64,000 bases of DNA, taken from assembly GCA_945872795.1 (NCBI GenBank), contig CAMCAZ010000003.1:1-64000 (forward strand), in the 5' to 3' direction. Below, in pieces: positions 190 to 37,868 of this stretch. A program made the translations under genes and the position numbers. The notes under the pieces were generated by a model. That model had not been told where the DNA came from. It did not search any database and saw only the letters and a program-made list of their open reading frames with translations. Each line of letters starts with the position of its first letter. Positions within the stretch are counted from its first letter, which is position 1. The DNA comes from Chryseobacterium gleum. GTDB lineage: Bacteria > Bacteroidota > Bacteroidia > Flavobacteriales_F > PHOS-HE28.

Positions 190-3100
190 TCAGGGCATCT
201 GTTCCTGTCGGGTGGCGGTCGGTACCGTTCCGCCGATGTTGGAGAGGATGATGTCCCGGTCGTTCGCCGCACCGGTGTATTTCACCACGCCGCTTAGATT
301 GGTATCCTCCAGGTAGTATCCCACCACGGTGCCCGTGGGCAGCGATCCGCCCACCACGCTCAGGATCGGATCGCGATCATTCGTCTGGCCTGCATAGCTC
401 AGTTTCTCATCGGGGGTGGCATTTCCTGCCCACATCAGCATGGATGCACCGTCCTGTTTGCGGGCCTCCGTGCCCCACATGGTCACCGAAGGTGAGCGCA
501 GATCCACGGTGACCGCGCTGCTGGACAACGCCACGGGGGCAAGGATCATGATGCCCAAGTGGTTGCGGTGACGGATGGCCAACTGGTAGTTCCCGGGGAC
601 CACCGGCAGCAGCACGGCCGAGGTGCCGTCCGCGGCGACGATATCACCATCGCGTTGCAAAAGCGCAGCACGCGCGCCGAGGACAGCGTGCGGCGAGGTC
701 GTGGACCGTGCTTCCACCCAGATCCAGTCCACGATGGCATTCGGGCCAGTGACGTCCAGCACACCGGAAGCGATGGTCTCCCCAACCGTTCCGCCCGTGT
801 AGCCAAGGGCGGTGTAGGGCTCCACGTTCGGTATCAGGGACTGTGTCCGGAGGTCATCACGCATCAGGGACTGAGCGGCATCAAAAGGTCCTTCGAGGAA
901 AACCTTGGGGTTGACCGCCACAACGTTCGGGACCGTCAGGCAGCCGTCCACGATGCTGGTGATGACGTTGTTCGCCTGGTCGTTCACGATGTCCACGATA
1001 TCACTGATGCAGACATTGCCCGCGGTCAAGGCGAGGTAGCTGATGCGGCACAGGGGCGTGAAGTCCGTGTGCTTCACCAGGCTGCTGTCCGTGTAGGATA
1101 GACCGATGATACGAGAACCACCAAGTCCGGAACTGATGGCGATATCGCCCACCAGGTTGGGGGCCAGGTTGGTGACGGTCTGCACTTGCAGTCCGGCCAT
1201 GACGAATTCATAACCGAGCACCCGACAGCTGGGATTCCTGATCAGCACATCCACCGTCTTGGCCACGGGATCCAGGTTGGCAAGCTTGAGGTCAACCTGG
1301 TCTTCGGCACTGAGCCAACCGCGTGGGAACTCGCACCACGGATGGTAATCCACGATGGTGGTCGCATTGTGGATGTCGCGCTGCGTGTAGCAGTTCACCA
1401 TCAACGCCGCATCGGTCACCGTGATGGCGTTGTCGCCGTTGAGGTCGTTGCAGGCGTTGGGGGAGATGTCATCGCCCAAGATCGCCATCACGTACTCCTG
1501 CGCATCTGGCTGTGTTTGGAAGTTGTCACTGTTCAGGTCGCCATCCTTCACCGTTCCTGCGCAGGTACCCATGCAGTCGTAGCGCGCGCTGCCATATGGT
1601 TGTCCCAGACAATCGGTGTAGGGTGCGCAGTTGCTCACCACTGAGAACGAGGGCACGTTCTGGGCGTTGCGGGTAAGGTTGATGCAGACCTGGGCGAAGT
1701 TGTTCGTGTAATCCATCTCGTGGCGCCCCAGGGCATCGGGGGCCCTTTGCCAGTTGGTGCGGAGCACCAAGGTGTATTGCCCGGCGGGCACGTTGGTCAC
1801 ATCGATCCAATTGCATGTGGTGCCCGAACCATAGATGTCGTAACAGCCCTTGGAGATGCCCATGTTGCTGCAACCGTACTGGCCGGTGTTCCCAGGGTAG
1901 CAGCCCACGTCGATCACACAGAAGCCGTTCTTGAAGCCCACGGGGATCGCGTTGCCCGCCTGGTCGAAGAGGATGTAGTCCGCATAGCCGGAGTAGTGGG
2001 CGTGACCATGGCAGTTGATGGTATTGAACATCCACGGCTGCGCGCTGGGGCTGCCGATGTAATAGTCGGTGGTGCCGATGTTCTCGATGCGGGTGGTGAA
2101 GCGCAACACGTAGCGCTGGCCCATTCCACCGGTGCAGCCCTCCTGCGGGGCGCAGGGGTCGGTAATGTTCACCGTGGACAGGGAAAGGCTGCTCTGCAGG
2201 GCCGATGAGCTCATGATCAGGTCGGGACCTTCCGGACACTCCGGATCCCCGAAGGGCATGCAACAATCGACACAGGCGATGGTGGCGAGCGGGTTGTAGT
2301 TGCAGGATTGTGAGTTCATGCATCCGGTGACAGGGCCGTTGTACACGATGGAGAAGGTCACGGAACCACCGCACGCCCCCGCATTGTCGCCGACCCTCAT
2401 GTGGTGGAGCACGCCACCGGGCATGTTGGCGTTCACCTGGGCCTGGAGGCCGCATCCGCCTTCATCATCATCGGCGAAGGTGGCACCCTCGACACCACTG
2501 CTCAAGACGATCGAGGAACAGCTCATATCATAGAGCCACAAGCGGGTGTCGCAACTGTTCGTTCCGCAGGTGGTGATGGTGTAGGCACCGGTCTGCGGTG
2601 GGGTCCAGTCATACCATTGCTCCACGGCGGTGGTGGTCACCGTGGCCAGGGTCTGCGGATAGGTTCCCGAGAGCGGGGCCAGGGTGAGCGGCAGGGCGGA
2701 ACTGCAGCTGAAGCCGGGGGGACAGTTGAAGGTGGTCTCCTCGAACGCACCGAACTGGCCACCCTGCTTGATCAGGACACCATCGAGCCAGACGTAATAG
2801 GCCCCGAAACCATAGGTATTGTGGTAGATACCATCGCCGGCCGTGTCGTCGATCCGGAACACGAGGCACGTGTTGTTGGGTACACAGATGGTGGTGCCGG
2901 TGCGATTGGTGGTGCTGTTCCCGCTCACGATGGTGGCTCCGGTGGATCCGTTCTTCAAGGTCCACGAGGTCTCGCCCTGATAGCTGTCGTTCATGATATC
3001 GATGCGCAACCGCTTCTGGCCGGCAGGGCAGCTGTAATTGCAGGTGCCGTTGTTCAGGTTCACGGCAGCACTGTAGTTGTTGGCCGTCGGTTCGCTGCAT

Positions 3101-3714
3101 CCCAGGTTCGGCGTCAGGTTCCCGACGAACACATCATCAATGGCGATATCGCTCAGTTCTCCCGCACCCGTGATCGCCCTGAAGCGGATCCGCAGATCGG
3201 TCTGCCCGGCCCACGGCGCCAGGTTCAACCAGCCCTGCTTCCAGTAAAGGCCCTGGTCACCGGTGGCTGTCCATTGGCTCAGGGTCACCACGCCACCGGC
3301 ATTCACATCCACCTGCAACGACCCCGTCTGTGTGCCCCGCATATGATACCAGAATACGAGGTAGGGGCTGGACAGCCCGGAGATGCTGTAACACGGCGAT
3401 TGCAGGATGGCCACCTTGGCCGGCGTATTGGTCGCACCAGAGCTCTCCACGTACATGTACTTCGCATTGGCCGTGGTGTTGCTCAAGGTGTGATCCACGA
3501 TGGGACCGGTCTCCGCCGTGGGCGTACCATTGTTATCCACGTTCCAATCGATGTCGTCGATGGTGAGGTTGGACCAGTTATTGATCAGTGTTCCGGGCGT
3601 CCCCACAGTGAAACCGCTGAAGGCCTCGTTCGAAGGGAACGTGCTCACACACTGGGCACGGGCAACGGTCGCCGCGAGGATCACGGCGGCAGCCAGGGTA
3701 GTGGTTCGTAACAT
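190..3714 (-). CDS. Large secreted modular protein with a lysyl oxidase domain
   Basis: Predicted secreted protein of 1174 residues. A Sec signal peptide ends in VARAQ. Next come a MAM-like domain (about 20-200, ending SDIAIDDV), Cys-rich GC-type spacer modules, a lysyl oxidase domain (about 495-680), dockerin-like calcium loops (about 724-780, DLNGDNAITVTD), a cohesin-like beta domain (about 795-925) and a C-terminal part carrying two YxGxxNDRDxIL motifs. In the oxidase domain the copper ligands H569, H571 and H573 (CHGHAH) are present. K595 and Y628 match the lysine and tyrosine that form the LTQ cofactor in animal enzymes, so oxidation of lysine side chains on an extracellular protein is plausible. 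The frame is open upstream to 4308, but that would cover fabI on the other strand; ATG 3714 gives a clean signal peptide. No Por-type T9SS tail is seen. Substrate unknown. Confidence 0.82.
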   Translation of the reverse strand: MLRTTTLAAAVILAATVARAQCVSTFPSNEAFSGFTVGTPGTLINNWSNLTIDDIDWNVDNNGTPTAETGPIVDHTLSNTTANAKYMYVESSGATNTPAKVAILQSPCYSISGLSSPYLVFWYHMRGTQTGSLQVDVNAGGVVTLSQWTATGDQGLYWKQGWLNLAPWAGQTDLRIRFRAITGAGELSDIAIDDVFVGNLTPNLGCSEPTANNYSAAVNLNNGTCNYSCPAGQKRLRIDIMNDSYQGETSWTLKNGSTGATIVSGNSTTNRTGTTICVPNNTCLVFRIDDTAGDGIYHNTYGFGAYYVWLDGVLIKQGGQFGAFEETTFNCPPGFSCSSALPLTLAPLSGTYPQTLATVTTTAVEQWYDWTPPQTGAYTITTCGTNSCDTRLWLYDMSCSSIVLSSGVEGATFADDDEGGCGLQAQVNANMPGGVLHHMRVGDNAGACGGSVTFSIVYNGPVTGCMNSQSCNYNPLATIACVDCCMPFGDPECPEGPDLIMSSSALQSSLSLSTVNITDPCAPQEGCTGGMGQRYVLRFTTRIENIGTTDYYIGSPSAQPWMFNTINCHGHAHYSGYADYILFDQAGNAIPVGFKNGFCVIDVGCYPGNTGQYGCSNMGISKGCYDIYGSGTTCNWIDVTNVPAGQYTLVLRTNWQRAPDALGRHEMDYTNNFAQVCINLTRNAQNVPSFSVVSNCAPYTDCLGQPYGSARYDCMGTCAGTVKDGDLNSDNFQTQPDAQEYVMAILGDDISPNACNDLNGDNAITVTDAALMVNCYTQRDIHNATTIVDYHPWCEFPRGWLSAEDQVDLKLANLDPVAKTVDVLIRNPSCRVLGYEFVMAGLQVQTVTNLAPNLVGDIAISSGLGGSRIIGLSYTDSSLVKHTDFTPLCRISYLALTAGNVCISDIVDIVNDQANNVITSIVDGCLTVPNVVAVNPKVFLEGPFDAAQSLMRDDLRTQSLIPNVEPYTALGYTGGTVGETIASGVLDVTGPNAIVDWIWVEARSTTSPHAVLGARAALLQRDGDIVAADGTSAVLLPVVPGNYQLAIRHRNHLGIMILAPVALSSSAVTVDLRSPSVTMWGTEARKQDGASMLMWAGNATPDEKLSYAGQTNDRDPILSVVGGSLPTGTVVGYYLEDTNLSGVVKYTGAANDRDIILSNIGGTVPTATRQEQMP

Positions 3715-3846: not shown

Positions 3847-4665
3847 ATGGCCAACGGACTGTTGAAGGGAAAACGGGGGATCATCTCCGGTGCATTGAAC
3901 GACCAGAGCATTGCCTGGAAGGTGGCCGAACTGGCGCACGCAGAAGGGGCGACCATCATTCTGACGAACGCTCCGGTGGCCATGCGCATGGGCGAGATCA
4001 ACAAGCTGGCCGAGACCATCGGGGCCTCCATAGTTCCTGCGGATGCCACCAATGATGCCGACCTGGAGAAGCTCTTCACGGACAGCCAGGCAGCGCTCGG
4101 TGGTCCGGTGGATTTCCTGCTGCACAGCATCGGCATGAGCCCCAACGTGCGCAAGGGCCGGAGCTACGACAACCTCAACTACGAGTGGTACAAGCAGACC
4201 CTGGACGTGAGCGCCATGAGCCTTCATCGCATGTTGCAGGCGGCACACAAGCAGAACGCCCTTGCCCATGAGGCTTCTGTTGTGGCCCTCAGTTACATCG
4301 CCGCGCAACGGGTATTCCCGGATTATGGCGACATGGCCGACGCCAAGGCCCTGCTGGAATCCATCACCCGCAGCTGGGGCTACCGCCTAGGCAAGGAGAA
4401 CCGTGTGCGGGTGAACACCGTGAGCCAGAGCCCCACATGGACCACGGCCGGTTCGGGTGTGAAAGGCTTCGACGGGTTCTTCGGCTTCGCTCAGGCCATG
4501 AGCCCGCTGGGCAATGCACCCGCTGAGGATTGTGCCCGTTACTGCATCTCCCTGTTCAGCGACCTCACCAAGTTCGTCACCATGCAGAACCTTTTCCACG
4601 ATGGTGGTTTCAGCAGTACGGGTGTGACACCGGAGGTGATGGCCAAATTCGTGGGCAGCGAATAA
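3847..4665 (+). CDS. fabI: Enoyl-[acyl-carrier-protein] reductase (NADH), FabI
   Basis: Last step of each fatty-acid elongation cycle in the cytoplasm: reduces trans-2-enoyl-ACP with NADH. The 272-residue protein is full length for the family. It has the FabI-type N-terminal nucleotide-binding segment (GLLKGKRGIISGALNDQSIAWK), here slightly divergent, and the catalytic Y-x6-K arrangement in YGDMADAK. ATG 3847 was chosen because it fits the family N-terminus and lies after the -7 box at 3816; the frame is open further upstream (3754). The stop codon overlaps a possible ATG (4665) of the next gene, so the two may be co-transcribed. Confidence 0.95.
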   Translation: MANGLLKGKRGIISGALNDQSIAWKVAELAHAEGATIILTNAPVAMRMGEINKLAETIGASIVPADATNDADLEKLFTDSQAALGGPVDFLLHSIGMSPNVRKGRSYDNLNYEWYKQTLDVSAMSLHRMLQAAHKQNALAHEASVVALSYIAAQRVFPDYGDMADAKALLESITRSWGYRLGKENRVRVNTVSQSPTWTTAGSGVKGFDGFFGFAQAMSPLGNAPAEDCARYCISLFSDLTKFVTMQNLFHDGGFSSTGVTPEVMAKFVGSE

Positions 4666-4706
4666 TGGACCGCCTGGTCAGTGTGGACCTTCCGGCACGG
4701 CAACGG

Positions 4707-6893
4707 ATGAACACGGAGTTCCGTAGGTGCCTGCTCCTGTGCCTGCTCGTCGGGTTGTTCGTCCTGCAGGCTGCGGCGCAAGGGGGTAAGGCCTTTCTGA
4801 AGGAAGGGGATGCCTTACGGAAGGCCAACGAACTCGACCGGGCCTTGGAACGATATGACCTGGCCATTCAGGTGGACCCGGACATGGTCAAGGCCTATGA
4901 GGCACGTGCAGAGGTGAACACGTTGCTGGGTAAGCAACTGGCCGTGGCCACGGACCGGGCGAAGATCGCCGAACTGGACCCTGCCGAACCGAACCACGCC
5001 GCTGCGGCAGCGGCCGCCTACCTGGAGGTCGATAGTGCGGCCCAGGCGCTTGACTACTGTGAGCGGGCCTTGCGGATGGACAGTAAGAACATGCCCGCCC
5101 TTCAGACAAAGGTCAGGGCCGCCCTTGCACTGAACGACCTCGACGCGGCCACACAGGCGTCCGATGCAGCGCTCGCGCTCAAGGCCACCACGGACACCTA
5201 TTACTTGCATGGGCTGGTGCGCACCGCCACCCGGGATTATGCCACGGCGGAATTCGACCTGGACAAGGTCATTGAGTGGAACCACCTCTACGAACCGGCC
5301 TACGTCGCTTTGTCAGAGGTGCAGCTGAAACTGTACCGGCAGTACAGCGGCACCACCATGCAGATGCGCACCTTGGAGAAGGCCATCGAGAAATGCACGC
5401 GGGCCCTGGAACTGAACCCGCAAAGCACCGATGCCCTGTTCACCCGCAGCAAAGCTCTGGCCTTGCAGAAGGAATACGCCAAGGCCATCGACGACGTCAG
5501 CCGCTGCATGGCCCTGGGACGCACCGATCGTGCCGTGTACGAACAGCGGGCCCGCTATTACGAGGGCTTCGGCCAGCAGCAGAACGCCATCAACGACCTG
5601 AACAAAGTGCTGTTGGAGCATCCGAAGGATGTGGACCTGCTCTTGTTGCGCGCCGAATGCCGGGAGGCGAACCTGGACATGGATGGGGCCTTGAAGGACC
5701 TGGAGACCGCGCAAAAGATCATGGAAGGCGATGCTTCCTACAGTGCCGACCAGCGCAAGGGGATCGAGGCTTCCCGGGCTCGGATCGCCCTCCAGGTGTT
5801 CGAGATGAACCGGGAAAGCGACCCTCCCCGGCTTACCGTGCTGGAGCCTTTCAGCCGGGACAGTGTGGCCCAGGTCTCGGCATCGTTGGCCTACCTGAAG
5901 GTCACCGGCTACGTGCTGGACAAAAGCCACCTGAAGTCCATCACAGTGAACGGGACACCAGCTCAGTTCGACAAAGAGGAAAAGGACCCCCAGTTCTTCA
6001 TTTCCATTCCCTGGGGACCTGCTGATGCGGAGATCGTGGTGCAGGCGGTCGATGCCTACGACAACTTCACCTCCGTGGTGCTTCGCGTGGAACGCACCGA
6101 AGGCCTTGCTCCCTTGGTATCCCTGACCGCGCCCGGAGCTGATGCTGACCGGGTCATCACGATCACCGCCGGCAAGGAGAGCATCTTCCTGGAAGGCAAG
6201 GTGACGGATGCATCCCTGATCCGCCTGATAACCGTGGACGGCGTAAATGCCAGCTACGCCCCCGATCAGATGAGCCCGGACTTCAGCATCAAGCTGGATG
6301 TGAAGGACAAGGAACAGTTCACCGTCCATGTGGAAGACCAGCACGGCAACAGCTCGGACCAGGTCTATCGCCTGTCGCGGAAAGCCGAACCGGTGGTGGC
6401 CGCCAAACCACCTGCTGAGACCGTGGCGGCCGGTACGCCCGCCACGCCGGTCGTACCCACCTCCCGGAACGGCAACACCTGGGTGATCCACATCGAGAAC
6501 GCGAACTACCGGAACTTCCCGGCCATCCAGTCCTCCGCTGCTGATGCGACGAAGATGCAGAAGGCCTTTGCGAACTACTCGATCTCCAAGACCATCACCA
6601 AGAAGAACCTCAGCAAGGAACAGTTGGAGCGCTTCTTCAACATCGAACTGCGCGACCTGGTGCGCACGAACAAGGTGGGCACCATCCTCGTGTGGTACTC
6701 CGGTCACGGACGATCGGTGGGTGGGAAGGCCTACTGGGTGCCGGTGGATGCCCGCAAGGATGACATCTACAGCTACTTCAACTATGGCTCGCTGAAGGCC
6801 CAGATGCAGAACTACAGTGAGAGCGTCGATAAAACAGTGGTGGTCTCCGATGCCGCTGGCAGCGATGCGTCCTTCTACGAACTGACCCGTTAG
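4707..6893 (+). CDS. Secreted TPR protein with truncated, inactive caspase-like domain
   Basis: 728 residues. Signal peptide (LLLCLLVGLFVLQAAAQ), then TPR repeats to about residue 370, beta-rich Ig-like segments (about 375-570), and a C-terminal caspase/peptidase C14-like domain from about 590. The catalytic histidine is present (H667 in YSGHG). The position where relatives have the catalytic Cys (DAC-x-SG) reads DAAGSD, with Ala717 in place of Cys, and the protein ends 11 residues later, so the last part of the caspase fold is absent. It is therefore probably a non-proteolytic scaffold or sensor. An in-frame ATG at 4665 overlapping the fabI stop is an alternative start; 4707 gives the better signal peptide. 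The adenylate cyclase gene starts 7 nt after its stop, suggesting co-expression. Confidence 0.85.
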   Translation: MNTEFRRCLLLCLLVGLFVLQAAAQGGKAFLKEGDALRKANELDRALERYDLAIQVDPDMVKAYEARAEVNTLLGKQLAVATDRAKIAELDPAEPNHAAAAAAAYLEVDSAAQALDYCERALRMDSKNMPALQTKVRAALALNDLDAATQASDAALALKATTDTYYLHGLVRTATRDYATAEFDLDKVIEWNHLYEPAYVALSEVQLKLYRQYSGTTMQMRTLEKAIEKCTRALELNPQSTDALFTRSKALALQKEYAKAIDDVSRCMALGRTDRAVYEQRARYYEGFGQQQNAINDLNKVLLEHPKDVDLLLLRAECREANLDMDGALKDLETAQKIMEGDASYSADQRKGIEASRARIALQVFEMNRESDPPRLTVLEPFSRDSVAQVSASLAYLKVTGYVLDKSHLKSITVNGTPAQFDKEEKDPQFFISIPWGPADAEIVVQAVDAYDNFTSVVLRVERTEGLAPLVSLTAPGADADRVITITAGKESIFLEGKVTDASLIRLITVDGVNASYAPDQMSPDFSIKLDVKDKEQFTVHVEDQHGNSSDQVYRLSRKAEPVVAAKPPAETVAAGTPATPVVPTSRNGNTWVIHIENANYRNFPAIQSSAADATKMQKAFANYSISKTITKKNLSKEQLERFFNIELRDLVRTNKVGTILVWYSGHGRSVGGKAYWVPVDARKDDIYSYFNYGSLKAQMQNYSESVDKTVVVSDAAGSDASFYELTR

Positions 6894-6900
6894 CCTGCGC

Positions 6901-9900
6901 ATGTCCCGAACATTGCCCTTCCGCCGCCTCTTCACCGGTGCTCTCCACCATGCCCGACCGGTGCTTATCGCGTTAGTGATAGGGGGGAGCGTTCCGGCGA
7001 TCGCGCAGCGCTACTTCTTCGAGAACGTTGCGGTGCAGCAAGGGCTCACCTCCAAGGTGTACACCGCTCTGCAAGATCCCTTTGGCCTGATCTGGATCGG
7101 CACGGAGACGGGCCTTTCCAGCTACGACGGCAATGTGGTGGTCAACTACGGCACCCAGGATGGGCTGGCGGCCAACGGCGTGCCTGCTCTTTGCATGGAC
7201 AAGGATGGTGGGCTTTGGATAGGGCACCTCGACGGTGGTCTCACGTATTACGACGGCCACCGGTTCCGGGCGCTTGCGGTGGCAACCAGCATGCAAAGCG
7301 ACATTACAGGCATTGCCCAGGCCGTTGATGGATCCATCTGGCTGAGCACCGCAGGCCAGGGAGCGTTCCGGTTGGAAGGTGCCCCCGATGAACGTGGCAC
7401 GTTGAAGGTGCAGCAGTTCGAGGAGGCTTCCGGCCTGCGCAAGGTGCTGCGCGGTGTGGTGAAGCTGCAGGATGACCGGCTCTGCTTCGTGCAGGATGCC
7501 GGCACGATCCGCGCCTACGATCCCGGATCCAAGCAATTCGCCTTGGTGGAACTGCCCGGTGTGAACGATGTCTTCAACGCGATCACCCTCTTCCAGGACA
7601 GTCGCCGGTCGCTCTGGGTGGGCACCGTGGAGGGTGGCGCATTCCAATTTGACGAAAGCGGCAAGCTGATCTCGCGCTACGACCTCTCCAATGGTCTGGC
7701 CAGCGGTACGGTCTTTTCGTTCGGTGAGGATGGCGACGGTCTGATCTGGGCGGGTACCACGGACGGTGGCATCAGCCTGATCCAGAAAGGCGGGTTGCGC
7801 ACCTTCAACAAGGGCAATGGGCTTCACAGCGATTTTGTGCGCTGCATCGTCCGCGACCGGGAAGGCAATCTCTTGATCGGCACCAACGACAGCGGTCTCG
7901 ACATCTTCAAGGGCGATCGTTTCATCAGCTTCGGCGAAGCTGACGGTCTTTCGGACCCACAGGTCTTCGCCGTGACAGTGGATTCGCAAGGCCGGACCTG
8001 GTTCGGCACCAACGGCGGCATTGTCATCATCTCCGGGAAGGAGGGCGGGGGGGTGGCACAGACCATCACCTCACAACAAGGCACGCTCACCACCAATTTC
8101 ATCCGCTGCCTGCGTGAGGATGACAAGGGCTACATGTGGATCGGCACCCACAACGGAGGCCTCATCCGCTATGACCCACGTAGCGGCAAGGCGGTGTACG
8201 ATGTCGAACTGTCCGCCAGCCTTGGAGATAACCGCGTGACCGCCCTCGAGGTCGGCCAATCGGGCGAGCTTTGGGTGGGCGGTGTCAACGGATTGCGCCG
8301 CTACCTGCCCGGATCGGGCACGGTTCCTACCGTCTACACAGAGGAGAACGGCCTTGCAGGCAACAACATCGTTTCGGTGTACAGGGACCCCAAAGGCAGC
8401 ATCTGGGTGGGCAGCCTGGCCAAGGGTGTCACGCGCATTGACAATGGCCAGGCACAGCGCTTGGACCTTGGTCGACTGTTCACCCCCACGGCTTTCGTCC
8501 AGGACCTCGAAGGCCGCATCTGGGTCGGCACGGAAGGGCAGGGCATCCTGGTGCTGGAGAACGGCAAGGTGGTACAGGAGTTCACCACCAACGAAGGGCT
8601 GCTGCACAATAGCATCAAGGCATTGGGCATCGACGACCACGGCCATGTGTGGATCGGCACCAGCCGGGGCCTCAACAAGTGGCGGCCCAAGAAGGGAGGA
8701 TTCATCGCCTTCACCGAGCGGGCCGGGTTCACCGGGCTTGAGGTGAAACCCAACGCCGTGTGGACCACACGCACGGGTGACCTGTGGTTCGGCACGGTGA
8801 ACGGCGCCACCCGCGTGGGCAGTGAAAAAGGTGCTGAACGTTCCATCGCCCCACTGGTGGCCCTGCGTGGCTGGAAGGTGAACCTCGAGGACCGCTCCAT
8901 GACGGAATCCCGACTGAGCCACAGCGACCGGAACGTGCGTATCGCCTTTGGCAGCGTCTCACTCAGCGATCCGGCAGCCGTGCGCTACATGTACAAGCTG
9001 GACGGACTGGATGAGGACTGGCAACCCATCACCACCACCGCCGAAGCGTACTACCCGGCGCTGCCTCCAGGCAACTACACCTTCCAAGTGAAGGCAATGG
9101 ACCGCAGTGGCCTGTGGAGCGATCCCCCAGCGCGACTGGAGTTCACCATCCTGCCGCCATGGTACCGTTCGTGGTGGTTCTACACTGCGCTCGCACTGGT
9201 CATCGGCATCGTACTGTTCAGCTACATCAAGGTACGGGAGCGGCAACTCCGGCTGCGCAACCAGATCCTGGAGCGCAAGGTGAAGGAGCGGACCGCGGAG
9301 GTGGTGGCACAGAGCAAGGAGATCGAAGGACAGAAGGGCCGGATCGAGGACCTGCTGCTGAACATCCTGCCCAAGGAGATCAGCGAGGAGCTCAAGGACA
9401 AGGGCAAGGCCACCGCACGCCGCCATGAGAAGGTCACCGTGCTGTTCACGGATATGAAGGGCTTCACCCAGGCAGCGGAGAAGATGACGCCGGAAGAGCT
9501 GGTCAACGAACTGGATGAGTGCTTCATCCGCTTCGACGAGATCGTGGGCCATTACGGGATCGAGAAGATCAAGACCATCGGCGACAGTTACATGTGCGCC
9601 GCCGGCGTTCCCACCAGCGACCCGTTCCATGCGCATAAGTGCATCCTGGCTGCCTTGGAGGTGCGGGACCTGATGGACGATTGGCGGCGCGAACGCGAGG
9701 CACAGGGGAAGACCCCGTGGATCCTGCGCATCGGTGTGCACAGCGGACCGGTGGTGGCCGGTGTGGTGGGCAAACGGAAGTTCGCCTACGACATCTGGGG
9801 CGATACCGTGAACACGGCCAGCCGGATGGAGAGCAGCGGTGCTCCCGGAGAAGTGAACATCAGCGGTGCCACTTACGAGCTGATCAAGGACCGCTTCGAG

Positions 9901-10065
9901 TGCGAATCCCGTGGGCAGGTCGCCGCCAAGAACAAGGGAGCCATCGACATGTACTTCGTGCGCCGGATCAAACCGGCGTACAGTGCGGATGAGCAGGGGA
10001 CCCGCCCCAACGACACGTTCCGGCGCGAAGTGGGATCACCCCTGGCCGCCGAACAGGTCGCGTAG
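6901..10065 (+). CDS. Beta-propeller sensor fused to class III adenylate cyclase
   Basis: 1054 residues. An N-terminal signal/anchor is followed by many two-component-regulator propeller repeats (IWIGT, LWVGT and WVGS motifs, about 40-640), a Y_Y_Y-type beta domain (about 690-755), one membrane helix (about 760-783), a coiled coil (about 785-825) and a class III cyclase domain (about 840-1020). Cyclase residues seen: metal-binding D851 (FTDMKGFT) and D895 (GDSY), the adenine-selecting pair K891 (KTIGD) and D964 (YDIWG), and the transition-state pair N971/R975 (NTASR). This predicts ATP to cAMP conversion. In Bacteroidota this sensor architecture usually ends in a histidine kinase, so a cyclase output is uncommon. 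The ligand is unknown. Its 3' end overlaps the converging Nudix gene by 30 nt. Confidence 0.9.
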   Translation: MSRTLPFRRLFTGALHHARPVLIALVIGGSVPAIAQRYFFENVAVQQGLTSKVYTALQDPFGLIWIGTETGLSSYDGNVVVNYGTQDGLAANGVPALCMDKDGGLWIGHLDGGLTYYDGHRFRALAVATSMQSDITGIAQAVDGSIWLSTAGQGAFRLEGAPDERGTLKVQQFEEASGLRKVLRGVVKLQDDRLCFVQDAGTIRAYDPGSKQFALVELPGVNDVFNAITLFQDSRRSLWVGTVEGGAFQFDESGKLISRYDLSNGLASGTVFSFGEDGDGLIWAGTTDGGISLIQKGGLRTFNKGNGLHSDFVRCIVRDREGNLLIGTNDSGLDIFKGDRFISFGEADGLSDPQVFAVTVDSQGRTWFGTNGGIVIISGKEGGGVAQTITSQQGTLTTNFIRCLREDDKGYMWIGTHNGGLIRYDPRSGKAVYDVELSASLGDNRVTALEVGQSGELWVGGVNGLRRYLPGSGTVPTVYTEENGLAGNNIVSVYRDPKGSIWVGSLAKGVTRIDNGQAQRLDLGRLFTPTAFVQDLEGRIWVGTEGQGILVLENGKVVQEFTTNEGLLHNSIKALGIDDHGHVWIGTSRGLNKWRPKKGGFIAFTERAGFTGLEVKPNAVWTTRTGDLWFGTVNGATRVGSEKGAERSIAPLVALRGWKVNLEDRSMTESRLSHSDRNVRIAFGSVSLSDPAAVRYMYKLDGLDEDWQPITTTAEAYYPALPPGNYTFQVKAMDRSGLWSDPPARLEFTILPPWYRSWWFYTALALVIGIVLFSYIKVRERQLRLRNQILERKVKERTAEVVAQSKEIEGQKGRIEDLLLNILPKEISEELKDKGKATARRHEKVTVLFTDMKGFTQAAEKMTPEELVNELDECFIRFDEIVGHYGIEKIKTIGDSYMCAAGVPTSDPFHAHKCILAALEVRDLMDDWRREREAQGKTPWILRIGVHSGPVVAGVVGKRKFAYDIWGDTVNTASRMESSGAPGEVNISGATYELIKDRFECESRGQVAAKNKGAIDMYFVRRIKPAYSADEQGTRPNDTFRREVGSPLAAEQVA

Positions 10066-33284: not shown

Positions 33285-33336
33285 CCCAAGCTTACCAGAG
33301 TGGAGGTTCCTCTGCGCCCATCGATCGGCGAAGTAC

Positions 33337-33344
33337 TACCTTCG
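33337..33344 (+). promoter_or_regulatory. Bacteroidota -7 box for the CUB-repeat protein
   Basis: TACCTTCG, 33 nt before ATG 33378. It supports that start over the in-frame ATG at 33300. Confidence 0.55.
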
Positions 33345-33377
33345 CTAACCACAGACCCCACTCAAAATCAGACCAGC

Positions 33378-36300
33378 ATGACCCGAACGCGACACGTATT
33401 GGCCAGTGCGCTTTTGTTGACAGGACTAGGGCTTTCGAGCCACGTCCTGGCGCAAGGCGGATGTACGAATGCAACACTATACCCCTTGAACGCCATTACG
33501 CCGGCGACCAACGGAACTCCCACGGTCATCTCCACCTGCACTTTCGAGGAAGAGCACTCCCAGGTGACCGGTATCGCTGGCGGAGGAACATATGAGTTCG
33601 CCAGTTCCTTGGGTTCCTACATTACCGTTCGCTCCGGCACCTTCGATGGTCCTGTGGTGGCGGAAGGTCTTTCACCCGTGCAGTTGACAGCGGTCGACAA
33701 TAGCGACCTGTTCCCGCACTGGAACGTGGACGCTACCTGCACTACGGATGATACCGAGTGTGCCGAGACCTCCGTTCAACGCATCCTGAACTGCACTCCT
33801 CCTGAGTTCACCTACACCTATACGGAGAATTGTGAGTTTGGCGAGTTCTACTTGGACATTAATGTCACCTCCACAGGTGATGGTTCCACGGTGAACATCA
33901 CCTACGATGTGTTCGGTTCGATCCAGACCATTGGAGCCGGCACCGGCGTGACCCAGATCGGCCCTTTCTTCATCGGTGATCAAGTGGACCTGACCATTGA
34001 GCACGAGTCCGATCCCGATTGCAACATCGCGCTTGGTCTGCTGGAGCTTACCTCTAACTGCCCGACCCCCATCGGATGCGGAGGTGCGCCGATCAGCAAC
34101 ACTTACTGTTACACGAACAGTGACAGCCGGACGTGGACCTACCAATCTGTAGGTACCGGGTCCTTGATCCTGAACTTCATCCAGGGCACCATTGAAAGCT
34201 GCTGCGATGACCTGACGATCTATGATGGATCGGACGCCACCGGCACCATCCTCTACCAGTTCGTCAACGGCCAGCCTGGTGATGTCTCGAACATCAGTGT
34301 GATCTCCCTCACCGGTTCATTGCACATGGCCATGACCTCCGATGGTTCCGTAAGCTGCACCAGTGGATCCACCACGGAATGGATCTGGGAAGTGAACTGC
34401 CTGAACTGTGTGTATCCACAGGTGACCACCACCGTGGTGGAGGACTGCCCGAACAACCAATGGTCGCTGGAAGTGGACGTGGTGAGCACGGGTGACGGCT
34501 CCACGGTGAACCTGAACTACACGGTGAACGGCGGCGGCATCCAGAGCGAGATCGGCGTTGGTGCCGGGGTCACTGTCCTTGGGCCCTTCGTGGTGAATGA
34601 TGAGGTGGACCTGGAAGTGGCACATGAAAGTGACGTGTTCTGCAACCTCGCCCTTCCCACGATCACCGACCCAGGCAACTGCCCAAACCTCGTGACCTGC
34701 GGAGCTCCGGCCTTCACGGACGAATATTGCTACACGAACAACACCACCGAGAGCTGGCTGTACACGGCCATCAGTGCCGGTACGCTCCGCCTGACCTTCA
34801 CGGCAGGTACCATCCAATCGAGCATCAACGATCGTCTGATCATCTATGACGGAGTGGACGCCACCGGGCCCATCCTATACGAGCACCTGGGACCGAACTT
34901 CCAGAACCAATTGGCAGGCATCCAGGTGAGCACCACCTCGGGCAGCCTGTTCATGGAGACCACCTCGGATGCGTTCACGAGCTGCTCCGATGCCAACCAG
35001 ACCGCCTGGGAGTGGAACGTCCAGTGCCTCGATTGCCTGCTTCCCGCTGCCACCACGACCATTGTGGAGGATTGCGCGAACAACCAGTTCACGATCCCGC
35101 TGAATGTGACCAGTGTGGGCGATGGAGCCTCTGCCACGGTGTCCTACACGGTCAATGGTGGGGCCGTCCAGACCATCACCGGCGTTGGCGTAGGTCAGAC
35201 CATCCTCGGTCCCTTCACGGTGAACGATGTGGTGAACCTGACGCTGGAGCACGAGAGCAACCCCTTGTGCAACATCCCCTTCGGCGATCTCACCGATCCC
35301 GGTACCTGCCCCACGATCATCGTGTGCGGCGCCACGGCCATCACGGAAACCTATTGCTACCTGCCCAGCGACGCGCAGGAATGGCGTTACCAATCCGGAG
35401 GTGCTGGCACGCTGCGCCTGCGTTTCAACCGCGGCACCATCGAATCGAACACCTTCGATGACCTGGCCATCTACGATGGTCTGGATGCCACGGGCACCCA
35501 GGTCTTTGTCCACAACAACACCAACACGTGGAACCTCGGCCCGGTAGGCAGCGCGATCAACAACACCCTGACCCAGTATTACGAGGTGGAGATCTATTCC
35601 ACCACCGGCAACCTGTACATGCAGATGTCATCCGATGGTTCCGTGCAGTGCGGTGGCCAGTTCCCGACGACCACGTTCGATTCCTGGGAATGGGAGGTGG
35701 TCTGCTTGGATTGCACCATCCCCGCGGGTACCGTCACCATCGTGGATGACTGCGCCAACGAGCAGTTCAGCTTGAGCGTCGATGTGACCGGCACCGGTAA
35801 TGCCGCCACGGCGAACATCGAATACACCGTGAACGGTGGGGCACTTCAAGTGGAAGCCGGTGTGGGTGTAGGTATCACCGTTCTGGGCCCCTTCGCCTTC
35901 GGCGATGTGGTGAACGTAGTGCTTGCCCATGAAAGCAACGTGCTGTGCAACATCGATGAGGGTGACTTCTCCGAGACCGGTACCTGCCCGCTGCTGATCG
36001 TCTGCGATGGCGCCTTCGTGCAGGATTCCGTCTGCTTTGGCAACAACCAGGACCTTCGTTACTATTACCAGGGCACGGGAACCTTCCCACTGGGTCTGTT
36101 CTTCGACAATGGCTTGCTGAGCTTCGGTGATGTGGTGACCGTTCACGATGGTGGTGACATCACCGCCCCGGTGATCTTCCAGAGCGCACCGAACGCGAAC
36201 CTCACCGGCGTGTTCGTGTCCACCACGAACCCGGAGAACCGCATGACCATCCGGATCCTGGCCGATGGATTCACCTCCTGCGCGGATGGTGGCCTGGCCG

Positions 36301-37868
36301 ATGATATCGCTTGGCAGGTCGGCTGCCTGGATTGTGTGCCTCCTGTGGCTGAATTCTCGATCATCCAAGATTGCGAGGACTTCCAGTACTCCGTGGAAGT
36401 GGTGGTGACATCACTGGGTACGGACCCTGAAGTGGAGATCGCCAACACGGGCGGGGTGGCTTCCACCTTCATCACGGCACCAGGTACCTATCAGGTGGGC
36501 CCCTTCGTTTCGGGCACCGAACTGGAAGTGACCTTGGTGAACGATGCGAACAACCTGTGCAACCTTTACTCGGGCACGTTGGTGAACCCCTTGTGCCCCA
36601 CGATCCTTTGCGGCAGTTCGCCCGTGGCAGAGACCTACTGCTACATCAACAACGAAAACCGGGCCTGGGCCTATGAGGTACCTGCAGGAGCAACGATCCA
36701 GTTGGTCTTCCAACGCGGTACCATCGAAAGCAACACCTGGGACGACCTGACCATCTTCGATGGCCCGGATGCGAGCGGCCCCGTGCTGTTCAGCCACATC
36801 AACACCTCGACCTACAACCTCGGGCCTGAAGGCAGCGCTGTGAACACCACGTTCAACCCATACTATGCTGTGGATGTGACCACCACCACCGGTAACCTGT
36901 ACATGACACTGACCACGGATGCTTCCGTATCCTGCGAAAGCCAGGCCGGTGCTTGGGACAGCTGGGAATGGACGGTCCAGTGCCTCGGTTGCCAGGCGCC
37001 CGGTGTGGCTTACAACCTGGTGGCGGATTGTATCGCCCGCACCTACGTGGCCGAAGTGATCGTCACTCAGACCCCCGGAGCGAACGGCCTTGAGATCGTG
37101 AACGAGAGCACCGGTGAGGATTCCGTGGTGACCGCACCAGGTGTTTACGTCTTCGGTCCATATGCCCAGAACGATACCACCGTGTTCGGTATCACGGACC
37201 TGGCCAACACCACCTGCACGTTCATCTCCGATTCCCTCACCTACTCGAGCGACGATTGCATCATCAGCACCTGCCAGGTACTGACGACGGACCTTTGCTA
37301 CGCGAACAATGAGGACCGCTGGTACACCTATCAGTCCATTGAGAATGTACCGATGACAGTGGCATTCGAACAGGGCCAGATGCTCACCGGTGACCGAATC
37401 GTGGTCTACAACGGCTTTGATGAGACCGCCACCGTGATCTACCAAGGCGCCAATGGTGGCAACCTGGCCGGTTTCGCGGTGAACTCGCAGAACCCGAACA
37501 ACGTGATCACCCTGCGCATCCAATCCAACAATGCCGGCTCCTGTGCTGATGGGGCGGCCACGGTGCCCCTGCGTTGGGCCGTGGGTTGTGGTGCTGTAGG
37601 CATCGACGAGGCTTCCTCGGAGGGCTTCAGCGTTTACCCGAACCCGACGCGTGACCTGCTGACGATCGCCCTGGGAGGCAATGTGAGCGGCGATGTGCTG
37701 GTGCGTGTCCTTGACATGAGCGGCCGCGTGGTCCTCGAATCGCCTTACGTGGTGAAGGGCGGCGGAAGCAACACCATCAGCCTGGCAGGTCTCCAGACCG
37801 GCCAGTACATGATCCAATTGAACACGGACAACTGGGTGAAGACCCAGCGTGTGCAGGTGGCCCGCTGA
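33378..37868 (+). CDS. T9SS-secreted protein with six CUB-like repeat units
   Basis: 1496 residues. Signal peptide (LASALLLTGLGLSSHVLAQ), an N-terminal CUB-like segment, then six units of about 200-225 residues. Each unit opens with a Cys-x2-Pro linker and a beta domain (STGDGSTVN; VLGPF; HESD-x2-CN), then a CUB-like domain (YCYTNN; GTIES-x3-DDL-x-IYDG-x-DATG; SCSD). The C-terminal about 75 residues are a T9SS type A sorting domain (FSVYPNPTRDLL ... GQYMIQL ... QRVQVAR), so the product should be exported through type IX secretion and attached to or released from the cell surface. No catalytic motif is seen; adhesion or glycan/protein binding is likely. It sits inside the N-glycan gene block but on its own promoter and terminator. 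Confidence 0.9.
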   Translation: MTRTRHVLASALLLTGLGLSSHVLAQGGCTNATLYPLNAITPATNGTPTVISTCTFEEEHSQVTGIAGGGTYEFASSLGSYITVRSGTFDGPVVAEGLSPVQLTAVDNSDLFPHWNVDATCTTDDTECAETSVQRILNCTPPEFTYTYTENCEFGEFYLDINVTSTGDGSTVNITYDVFGSIQTIGAGTGVTQIGPFFIGDQVDLTIEHESDPDCNIALGLLELTSNCPTPIGCGGAPISNTYCYTNSDSRTWTYQSVGTGSLILNFIQGTIESCCDDLTIYDGSDATGTILYQFVNGQPGDVSNISVISLTGSLHMAMTSDGSVSCTSGSTTEWIWEVNCLNCVYPQVTTTVVEDCPNNQWSLEVDVVSTGDGSTVNLNYTVNGGGIQSEIGVGAGVTVLGPFVVNDEVDLEVAHESDVFCNLALPTITDPGNCPNLVTCGAPAFTDEYCYTNNTTESWLYTAISAGTLRLTFTAGTIQSSINDRLIIYDGVDATGPILYEHLGPNFQNQLAGIQVSTTSGSLFMETTSDAFTSCSDANQTAWEWNVQCLDCLLPAATTTIVEDCANNQFTIPLNVTSVGDGASATVSYTVNGGAVQTITGVGVGQTILGPFTVNDVVNLTLEHESNPLCNIPFGDLTDPGTCPTIIVCGATAITETYCYLPSDAQEWRYQSGGAGTLRLRFNRGTIESNTFDDLAIYDGLDATGTQVFVHNNTNTWNLGPVGSAINNTLTQYYEVEIYSTTGNLYMQMSSDGSVQCGGQFPTTTFDSWEWEVVCLDCTIPAGTVTIVDDCANEQFSLSVDVTGTGNAATANIEYTVNGGALQVEAGVGVGITVLGPFAFGDVVNVVLAHESNVLCNIDEGDFSETGTCPLLIVCDGAFVQDSVCFGNNQDLRYYYQGTGTFPLGLFFDNGLLSFGDVVTVHDGGDITAPVIFQSAPNANLTGVFVSTTNPENRMTIRILADGFTSCADGGLADDIAWQVGCLDCVPPVAEFSIIQDCEDFQYSVEVVVTSLGTDPEVEIANTGGVASTFITAPGTYQVGPFVSGTELEVTLVNDANNLCNLYSGTLVNPLCPTILCGSSPVAETYCYINNENRAWAYEVPAGATIQLVFQRGTIESNTWDDLTIFDGPDASGPVLFSHINTSTYNLGPEGSAVNTTFNPYYAVDVTTTTGNLYMTLTTDASVSCESQAGAWDSWEWTVQCLGCQAPGVAYNLVADCIARTYVAEVIVTQTPGANGLEIVNESTGEDSVVTAPGVYVFGPYAQNDTTVFGITDLANTTCTFISDSLTYSSDDCIISTCQVLTTDLCYANNEDRWYTYQSIENVPMTVAFEQGQMLTGDRIVVYNGFDETATVIYQGANGGNLAGFAVNSQNPNNVITLRIQSNNAGSCADGAATVPLRWAVGCGAVGIDEASSEGFSVYPNPTRDLLTIALGGNVSGDVLVRVLDMSGRVVLESPYVVKGGGSNTISLAGLQTGQYMIQLNTDNWVKTQRVQVAR
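33789..37595 (+). repeat. Six tandem in-frame repeats inside the CUB protein gene
   Basis: Units begin near 33789, 34404, 35030, 35709, 36330 and 36987, each about 610-680 nt. Units 2, 3 and 4 are the most alike (Y-T-VNGG, G-GVGVG-T-LGPF). Unit 6 is the most diverged. Confidence 0.8.

Follow-up and report, generated by a model that had tools for sequence, protein, structure and literature searches.

Lysyl oxidase (LOX) domains have been described in bacteria, including Bacteroidetes, and most prokaryotic LOX proteins are simple, LOX-only proteins [Grau-Bove et al. 2015; PMC4448552]. The bacterial LOX of that survey retain the three core histidines and the LTQ-forming pair, while the first histidine of the animal enzymes is missing, and the same holds for the domain discussed here. 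One prokaryotic relative that has been assayed is HTU-LOX from the archaeon Haloterrigena turkmenica, an active, copper-dependent and 3-aminopropionitrile-sensitive amine oxidase that accepts lysine polymers and many small amines; no native role has been found for it, and its authors point out that disulfides are highly variable among LOX proteins (PMC6452851). HTU-LOX resembles the LOX domain of the present study in being prokaryotic and in keeping the catalytic residues. Unlike the protein studied here, it is archaeal and no MAM or dockerin-like modules have been described in it (PMC6452851). Among the animal enzymes, human LOXL2 shares with our domain the fold, the HxHxH motif, the LTQ lysine and tyrosine, and eight aligned cysteines at about 34% identity, but our domain is without equivalents of LOXL2 His623, His637, and His652, and MAM and dockerin-like modules stand where LOXL2 has SRCR domains. 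Our literature search returned no biochemical evidence for any LOX from Bacteroidota, and nothing on point for type IX secretion together with LOX, for LOX in connection with biofilm or amine oxidase, or for bacterial MAM domains. Bacterial LOX itself is already known (PMC4448552); the fixed multidomain layout, the link to type IX secretion, and the MAM-containing form have no prior description in the literature searched.

The gene lies on the minus strand near the beginning of the stretch of 64,000 nucleotides that was analyzed (here referred to as the window), which is the start of contig 3 in a 3.3 Mb assembly; window position 1 is also the contig start. The open reading frame begins with an ATG at 3714 and ends with a stop codon at 190-192. 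At 1174 residues, the product hardly deserves the word "giant" that the sequence-only reading applied to it. Its N terminus resembles a signal peptide, and cleavage would be expected after ARA. The parts are as follows (all on the minus strand).

190..3714, minus strand: whole gene, predicted secreted multidomain lysyl oxidase of 1174 aa (open reading frame)
3655..3714, minus strand: likely signal peptide MLRTTTLAAAVILAATVARA, residues 1-20 (read from the sequence)
3127..3579, minus strand: MAM domain, residues 46-196 (PF00629, E 5.1e-20; VIA-align Z 21.2 to 8yt7)
2710..3102, minus strand: beta-rich region R205, residues 205-335, without a named family (present in 96/99 A-type proteins)
2275..2709, minus strand: beta-rich region R336 and Cys-rich linker, residues 336-480 (98/99 A-type proteins)
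1609..2247, minus strand: lysyl oxidase catalytic domain, residues 490-702 (PF01186, AF2 model, conservation, dN/dS)
1996..2010, minus strand: copper ligand motif H569-G-H571-A-H573 (alignment)
1930..1932, minus strand: K595, the LTQ lysine (alignment)
1831..1833, minus strand: Y628, the LTQ tyrosine (alignment)
1315..1581, minus strand: dockerin-like pair of putative calcium loops, residues 712-800 (PDB profile matches)
925..1323, minus strand: beta domain, previously called "cohesin-like", residues 798-930 (99/99 A-type proteins)
193..924, minus strand: genus-specific C-terminal module ending in EQLP/EQMP (genome copies, two repeats)

The presence of a bacterial LOX domain, as first proposed from the sequence, was borne out both by profile search and by predicted structure. 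In the Pfam search, PF01186 matches residues 531-684 with 95.8 bits and an E-value of 3.5e-27 against a cut-off of 20.4, and therefore the match is not a chance result. A profile of the LOX domain finds human LOXL2 with an E-value of 2e-32. An AlphaFold2 model of the LOX domain alone, generated from an alignment of 49 A-type domains, has a mean pLDDT of 88.5 and superimposes on LOXL2 (5ze3) with a VIA-align Z of 21.0 and an rmsd of 2.8 over 194 aligned positions, while the next entry has a Z of 8.6; Foldseek also pairs the model with human LOXL2 (E 7e-14).

The residues expected to carry catalysis are where the sequence-only reading had placed them, i.e., H569, H571, H573, K595, and Y628 with a K–Y spacing of 33, and the GCYDIYG...CNWIDVTNVPAGQYTL region is found in the protein as well. 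The three histidines align to LOXL2 positions 626, 628, and 630, K595 to 653, and Y628 to 689. All five are invariant in the 49 A-type LOX domains of the alignment (that of the window and 48 from relatives, with at least one identical pair among the rows). Nine of the ten LOX-family cysteines are likewise invariant in 49/49, and C605 is kept in 47/49. Ten cysteines are fully conserved across the human LOX proteins (PMC9180022), and this ten-cysteine set of the animal catalytic domain is present in the window LOX: eight align to LOXL2, and the remaining two, which occupy the position of the fifth pair, fall past the stretch of LOXL2 that is aligned. Other bacterial LOX domains (Gemmatirosa, a second LOX in the same assembly, and a contig from a viral collection; see below) keep H/H/H/K/Y, but several to most of their cysteines are absent. 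Moreover, comparison of the window LOX domain with four relatives gives a dN/dS of about 0.08-0.14, at high synonymous divergence.

At the positions of the three LOXL2 histidines without equivalents, the window protein has other residues: I or N in place of His623, D in place of His637, and F in place of His652. In LOXL2, the three copper histidines are essential, whereas mutants at 623 or 652 form less than half of the LTQ, with some still formed, and the effect of mutating His637 on LTQ is not significant (PMC9694262). In the crystal structure of the human LOXL2 precursor, K653 and Y689 are 16.6 Å apart (PMC9694262), and a predicted separation of the corresponding lysine and tyrosine would therefore be an unsafe basis for refuting a LOX. 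Collectively, family, fold, residues, cysteines, and purifying selection strongly support the view that the predicted LOX domain is catalytically competent.

Segment profiles derived from the window family were run against the full set of 99 distinct A-type LOX proteins. Unlike the LOX-only prokaryotic proteins (PMC4448552), 99/99 A-type proteins have one multidomain layout, with the common order beta regions, Cys-rich linker, LOX, dockerin-like pair, and beta domain. The region 205-335, for which no sequence relative was found in the PDB, is detected in 96 of them, and region 336-465 and the Cys-rich linker in 98, while the dockerin-like and beta domains are present in every one. The form seen in the window (A1) differs by an added MAM domain and by a C-terminal module of ~245 residues that replaces the type IX tail; it is found in 30 of the 45 genomes of the genus. 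The MAM domain (PF00629, 72.3 bits in the window protein, cut-off 26.4) was found in 26 of 28 A1 proteins.

The earlier list of modules was upheld in part: MAM stands by both profile and fold, and the dockerin-like assignment by family profile, while "cohesin-like" finds no support at the sequence level. On its own, the window protein scores 10.6 bits against the dockerin family PF00404, which is under the cut-off of 22.9. Among family members, 19/29 match PF00404 at E <= 0.01, and a family profile of residues 712-800 yields 12 PDB matches, all of them dockerins (best E 0.0012), which supports regarding this segment as dockerin-like by sequence. A profile of residues 798-930, built from 28 sequences, recovered no cohesin from either PDB or Pfam and matched no family; the cohesin assignment was not adopted on sequence grounds, though a cohesin-type fold may still be present. 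The segment is modeled as strands with pLDDT mostly 78-93; the whole-protein fold search returned matches to MAM and LOX and gave no view of its fold.

Among A-type proteins whose C termini are without the window-type ending, 66/70 match Por_Secre_tail, and those relatives therefore resemble cargo of the type IX secretion system. In the Pfam search, the window protein matched neither PF18962 nor any other recognizable type IX tail. Its genome contains SprA and has 126 matches to TIGR04183. The module that takes the place of the tail carries two D-x-N-x-[DS]-G...NDRDxIL repeats, which are calcium-loop-like, and has no match among Pfam, NCBIfam, and PDB sequences. It has 16 matches in the same genome, where a protease and sugar-dehydrogenase-like proteins are among those that end in it. 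Every one of the 45 genomes of the genus has it, in 4-47 copies, compared with 1/51 other genomes in the same search, and more distant versions occur in 7/394 other genomes of the phylum sample. Judging from its position and the company it keeps, the module probably exports or anchors the proteins that carry it, and it may represent an unrecognized sorting or anchoring domain. A further module-bearing secreted protein of this genome (L221, G000 contig 85) has eight MopE-type putative metal-binding motifs (PF11617).

The LOX gene and an enoyl-ACP reductase gene point away from each other. The latter is followed by a TPR protein with a C-terminal caspase-like (C14) domain (4530-6893, plus strand) and by a propeller/Y_Y_Y sensor with a guanylate/adenylate cyclase domain (6901-10065, plus strand), and in several relatives the TPR/C14 and cyclase-sensor pair stays adjacent to the reductase gene. 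The gene order LOX, reductase, TPR, cyclase is the same in 4/11 relatives inspected, a pattern that fits vertical inheritance. Other congeners have LOX in the company of further secreted-module genes, and in two of them a B-type LOX is found at a distance of up to about 10 kb. Among the neighbors, which are proteases, other secreted proteins, or the enoyl-ACP reductase gene, no substrate gene linked to LOX was recognized.

The assembly also encodes a second, divergent LOX of 872 residues, the B-type (L100 16178-18769, G000 contig 52), whose gene is near that of a reprolysin-like secreted protein. It keeps HxHxH, K, and Y and has the same C-terminal module as the window protein; it differs from the A-type in its Pfam score (34-45 bits), in the absence of most cysteines, and in forming a separate branch in the tree. 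A LOX of either type occurs in 97/395 sampled Bacteroidia genomes, representing 45/196 genera, and the named relatives include Flavobacteriales, Saprospiraceae, Chitinophagales, and Phaeodactylibacter, of which P. luteus and P. xiamenensis carry the A2 form. In the tree, A1 is one group (96/27) within the Bacteroidota A-type, and the B-type stands apart. LOXL2, the sole animal sequence included, is long-branched and placed next to the A-type group with weak support (82/75), and a transfer from animals to bacteria is accordingly not claimed. An origin from phages or plasmids was likewise set aside, since the LOX gene had no phage match and the plasmid search gave a single remote match, in Gemmatirosa. 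One IMG/VR contig of 113.8 kb encodes a weak LOX relative (L186 4878-5531) with 31% identity that retains HxHxH, K, and Y; this contig from a viral collection may be a mis-sorted cellular one.

Taken together, we consider it likely that the window protein is a member of the lysyl oxidase family that is exported and acts as a copper/LTQ amine oxidase, with the MAM and dockerin-like/beta modules probably positioning it. In the proposed scheme, the signal peptide would direct the protein to the periplasm. The closest relatives would leave the cell via the type IX secretion system by means of their C-terminal tail; in the genus of the window, the C-terminal module would stand in for this tail and probably exports or anchors the protein in its place. 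Once the enzyme is extracellular, the copper held by H569, H571, and H573 would cause K595 and Y628 to form the quinone cofactor. The enzyme would then oxidize primary amines, among which lysine side chains or small amines are the likeliest, yielding aldehydes, H2O2, and ammonia, while the MAM domain and the dockerin-like/beta pair probably place it on a partner or polymer. The scheme infers how this variant is secreted, that its cofactor forms, and that the enzyme is active, as well as its substrate and its role in the organism.

The lysine content of potential substrates bears on the role. In the small set of secreted-module proteins examined, lysine accounts for about 0.8-1.3% of residues, and the secreted proteins examined in the genus are generally lysine-poor. 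Elsewhere in the window, a type IX secreted protein of 1522 residues (33300-37868, plus strand) has about 0.1% lysine. Congeners without LOX are about equally lysine-poor (1.3% versus 0.8-1.05%), and lysine depletion as an adaptation to LOX was rejected on this ground. Few proteins were measured; their lysine poverty limits the sites for cross-linking of own proteins and neither favors nor excludes cross-linking.

What the enzyme acts on can be read in more than one way. In line with the matrix cross-linking put forward in the sequence-only reading, its targets might be lysines in surface or floc proteins made by the cell itself, which it would oxidize to aldehydes that form covalent cross-links as in the animal matrix. 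That animal LOX does so, that the protein looks exported and has adhesion-type modules (MAM and dockerin-like), and that LOX sits within a run of secreted-module genes in two congeners all speak for this possibility; we hold it only tentatively, because the low lysine content of the secreted proteins examined (down to the 0.1% of the type IX protein in the window) leaves few own cross-linking sites, the LOX-free congeners show the same poverty, and the surroundings of the gene revealed no partner with lysine-rich repeats. About equal in our estimate, and hence also well short of probable, is a nutritional or detoxifying amine oxidase that strips amines of the environment or of foreign peptides for nitrogen, or inactivates amine compounds. 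The specificity of HTU-LOX is relaxed, covering small amines, glycine, aminoglycosides, and polymyxin, and its authors propose a modest role in nitrogen supply (PMC6452851); in addition, neighboring secreted genes in relatives encode proteases (M36, reprolysin-like, and trypsin-like). The linkage to proteases differs from genome to genome, however, and the full animal cysteine set and the large adhesive architecture point more toward an enzyme acting on proteins than toward a scavenger.

In a mixed community, the protein could also serve antagonism, either as a producer of H2O2 or by modifying surface proteins of other organisms. LOX chemistry yields extracellular H2O2, and the organism's own lysine-poor secreted proteins would largely escape; yet members of the genus are lysine-poor whether or not they carry LOX, and we regard antagonism as improbable. 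Least probable of all is that the domain is a degenerate, non-enzymatic LOX fold with a structural role: although two histidines that affect LTQ yield in LOXL2 are replaced, the essential residues are invariant in 49/49 domains and dN/dS is about 0.1. The preferred reading thus remains an exported amine oxidase, with matrix cross-linking and amine scavenging about equally placed as its purpose.

A broader proposal, which we regard as rather doubtful, is that Bacteroidota have a dedicated, conserved secreted LOX machine that docks or assembles through its dockerin-like and beta modules and cross-links extracellular floc or biofilm proteins. If true, this machine would be a bacterial counterpart of animal matrix cross-linking. 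Together with the presence of an A- or B-type LOX in roughly one in four sampled Bacteroidia genomes, the A-type, with its animal cysteine set and fixed layout, provides a concrete target for understanding both the role of LOX outside animals and the origin of the animal enzyme. The named strains with the A2 form, Phaeodactylibacter luteus and P. xiamenensis, make the role of LOX testable in culture.
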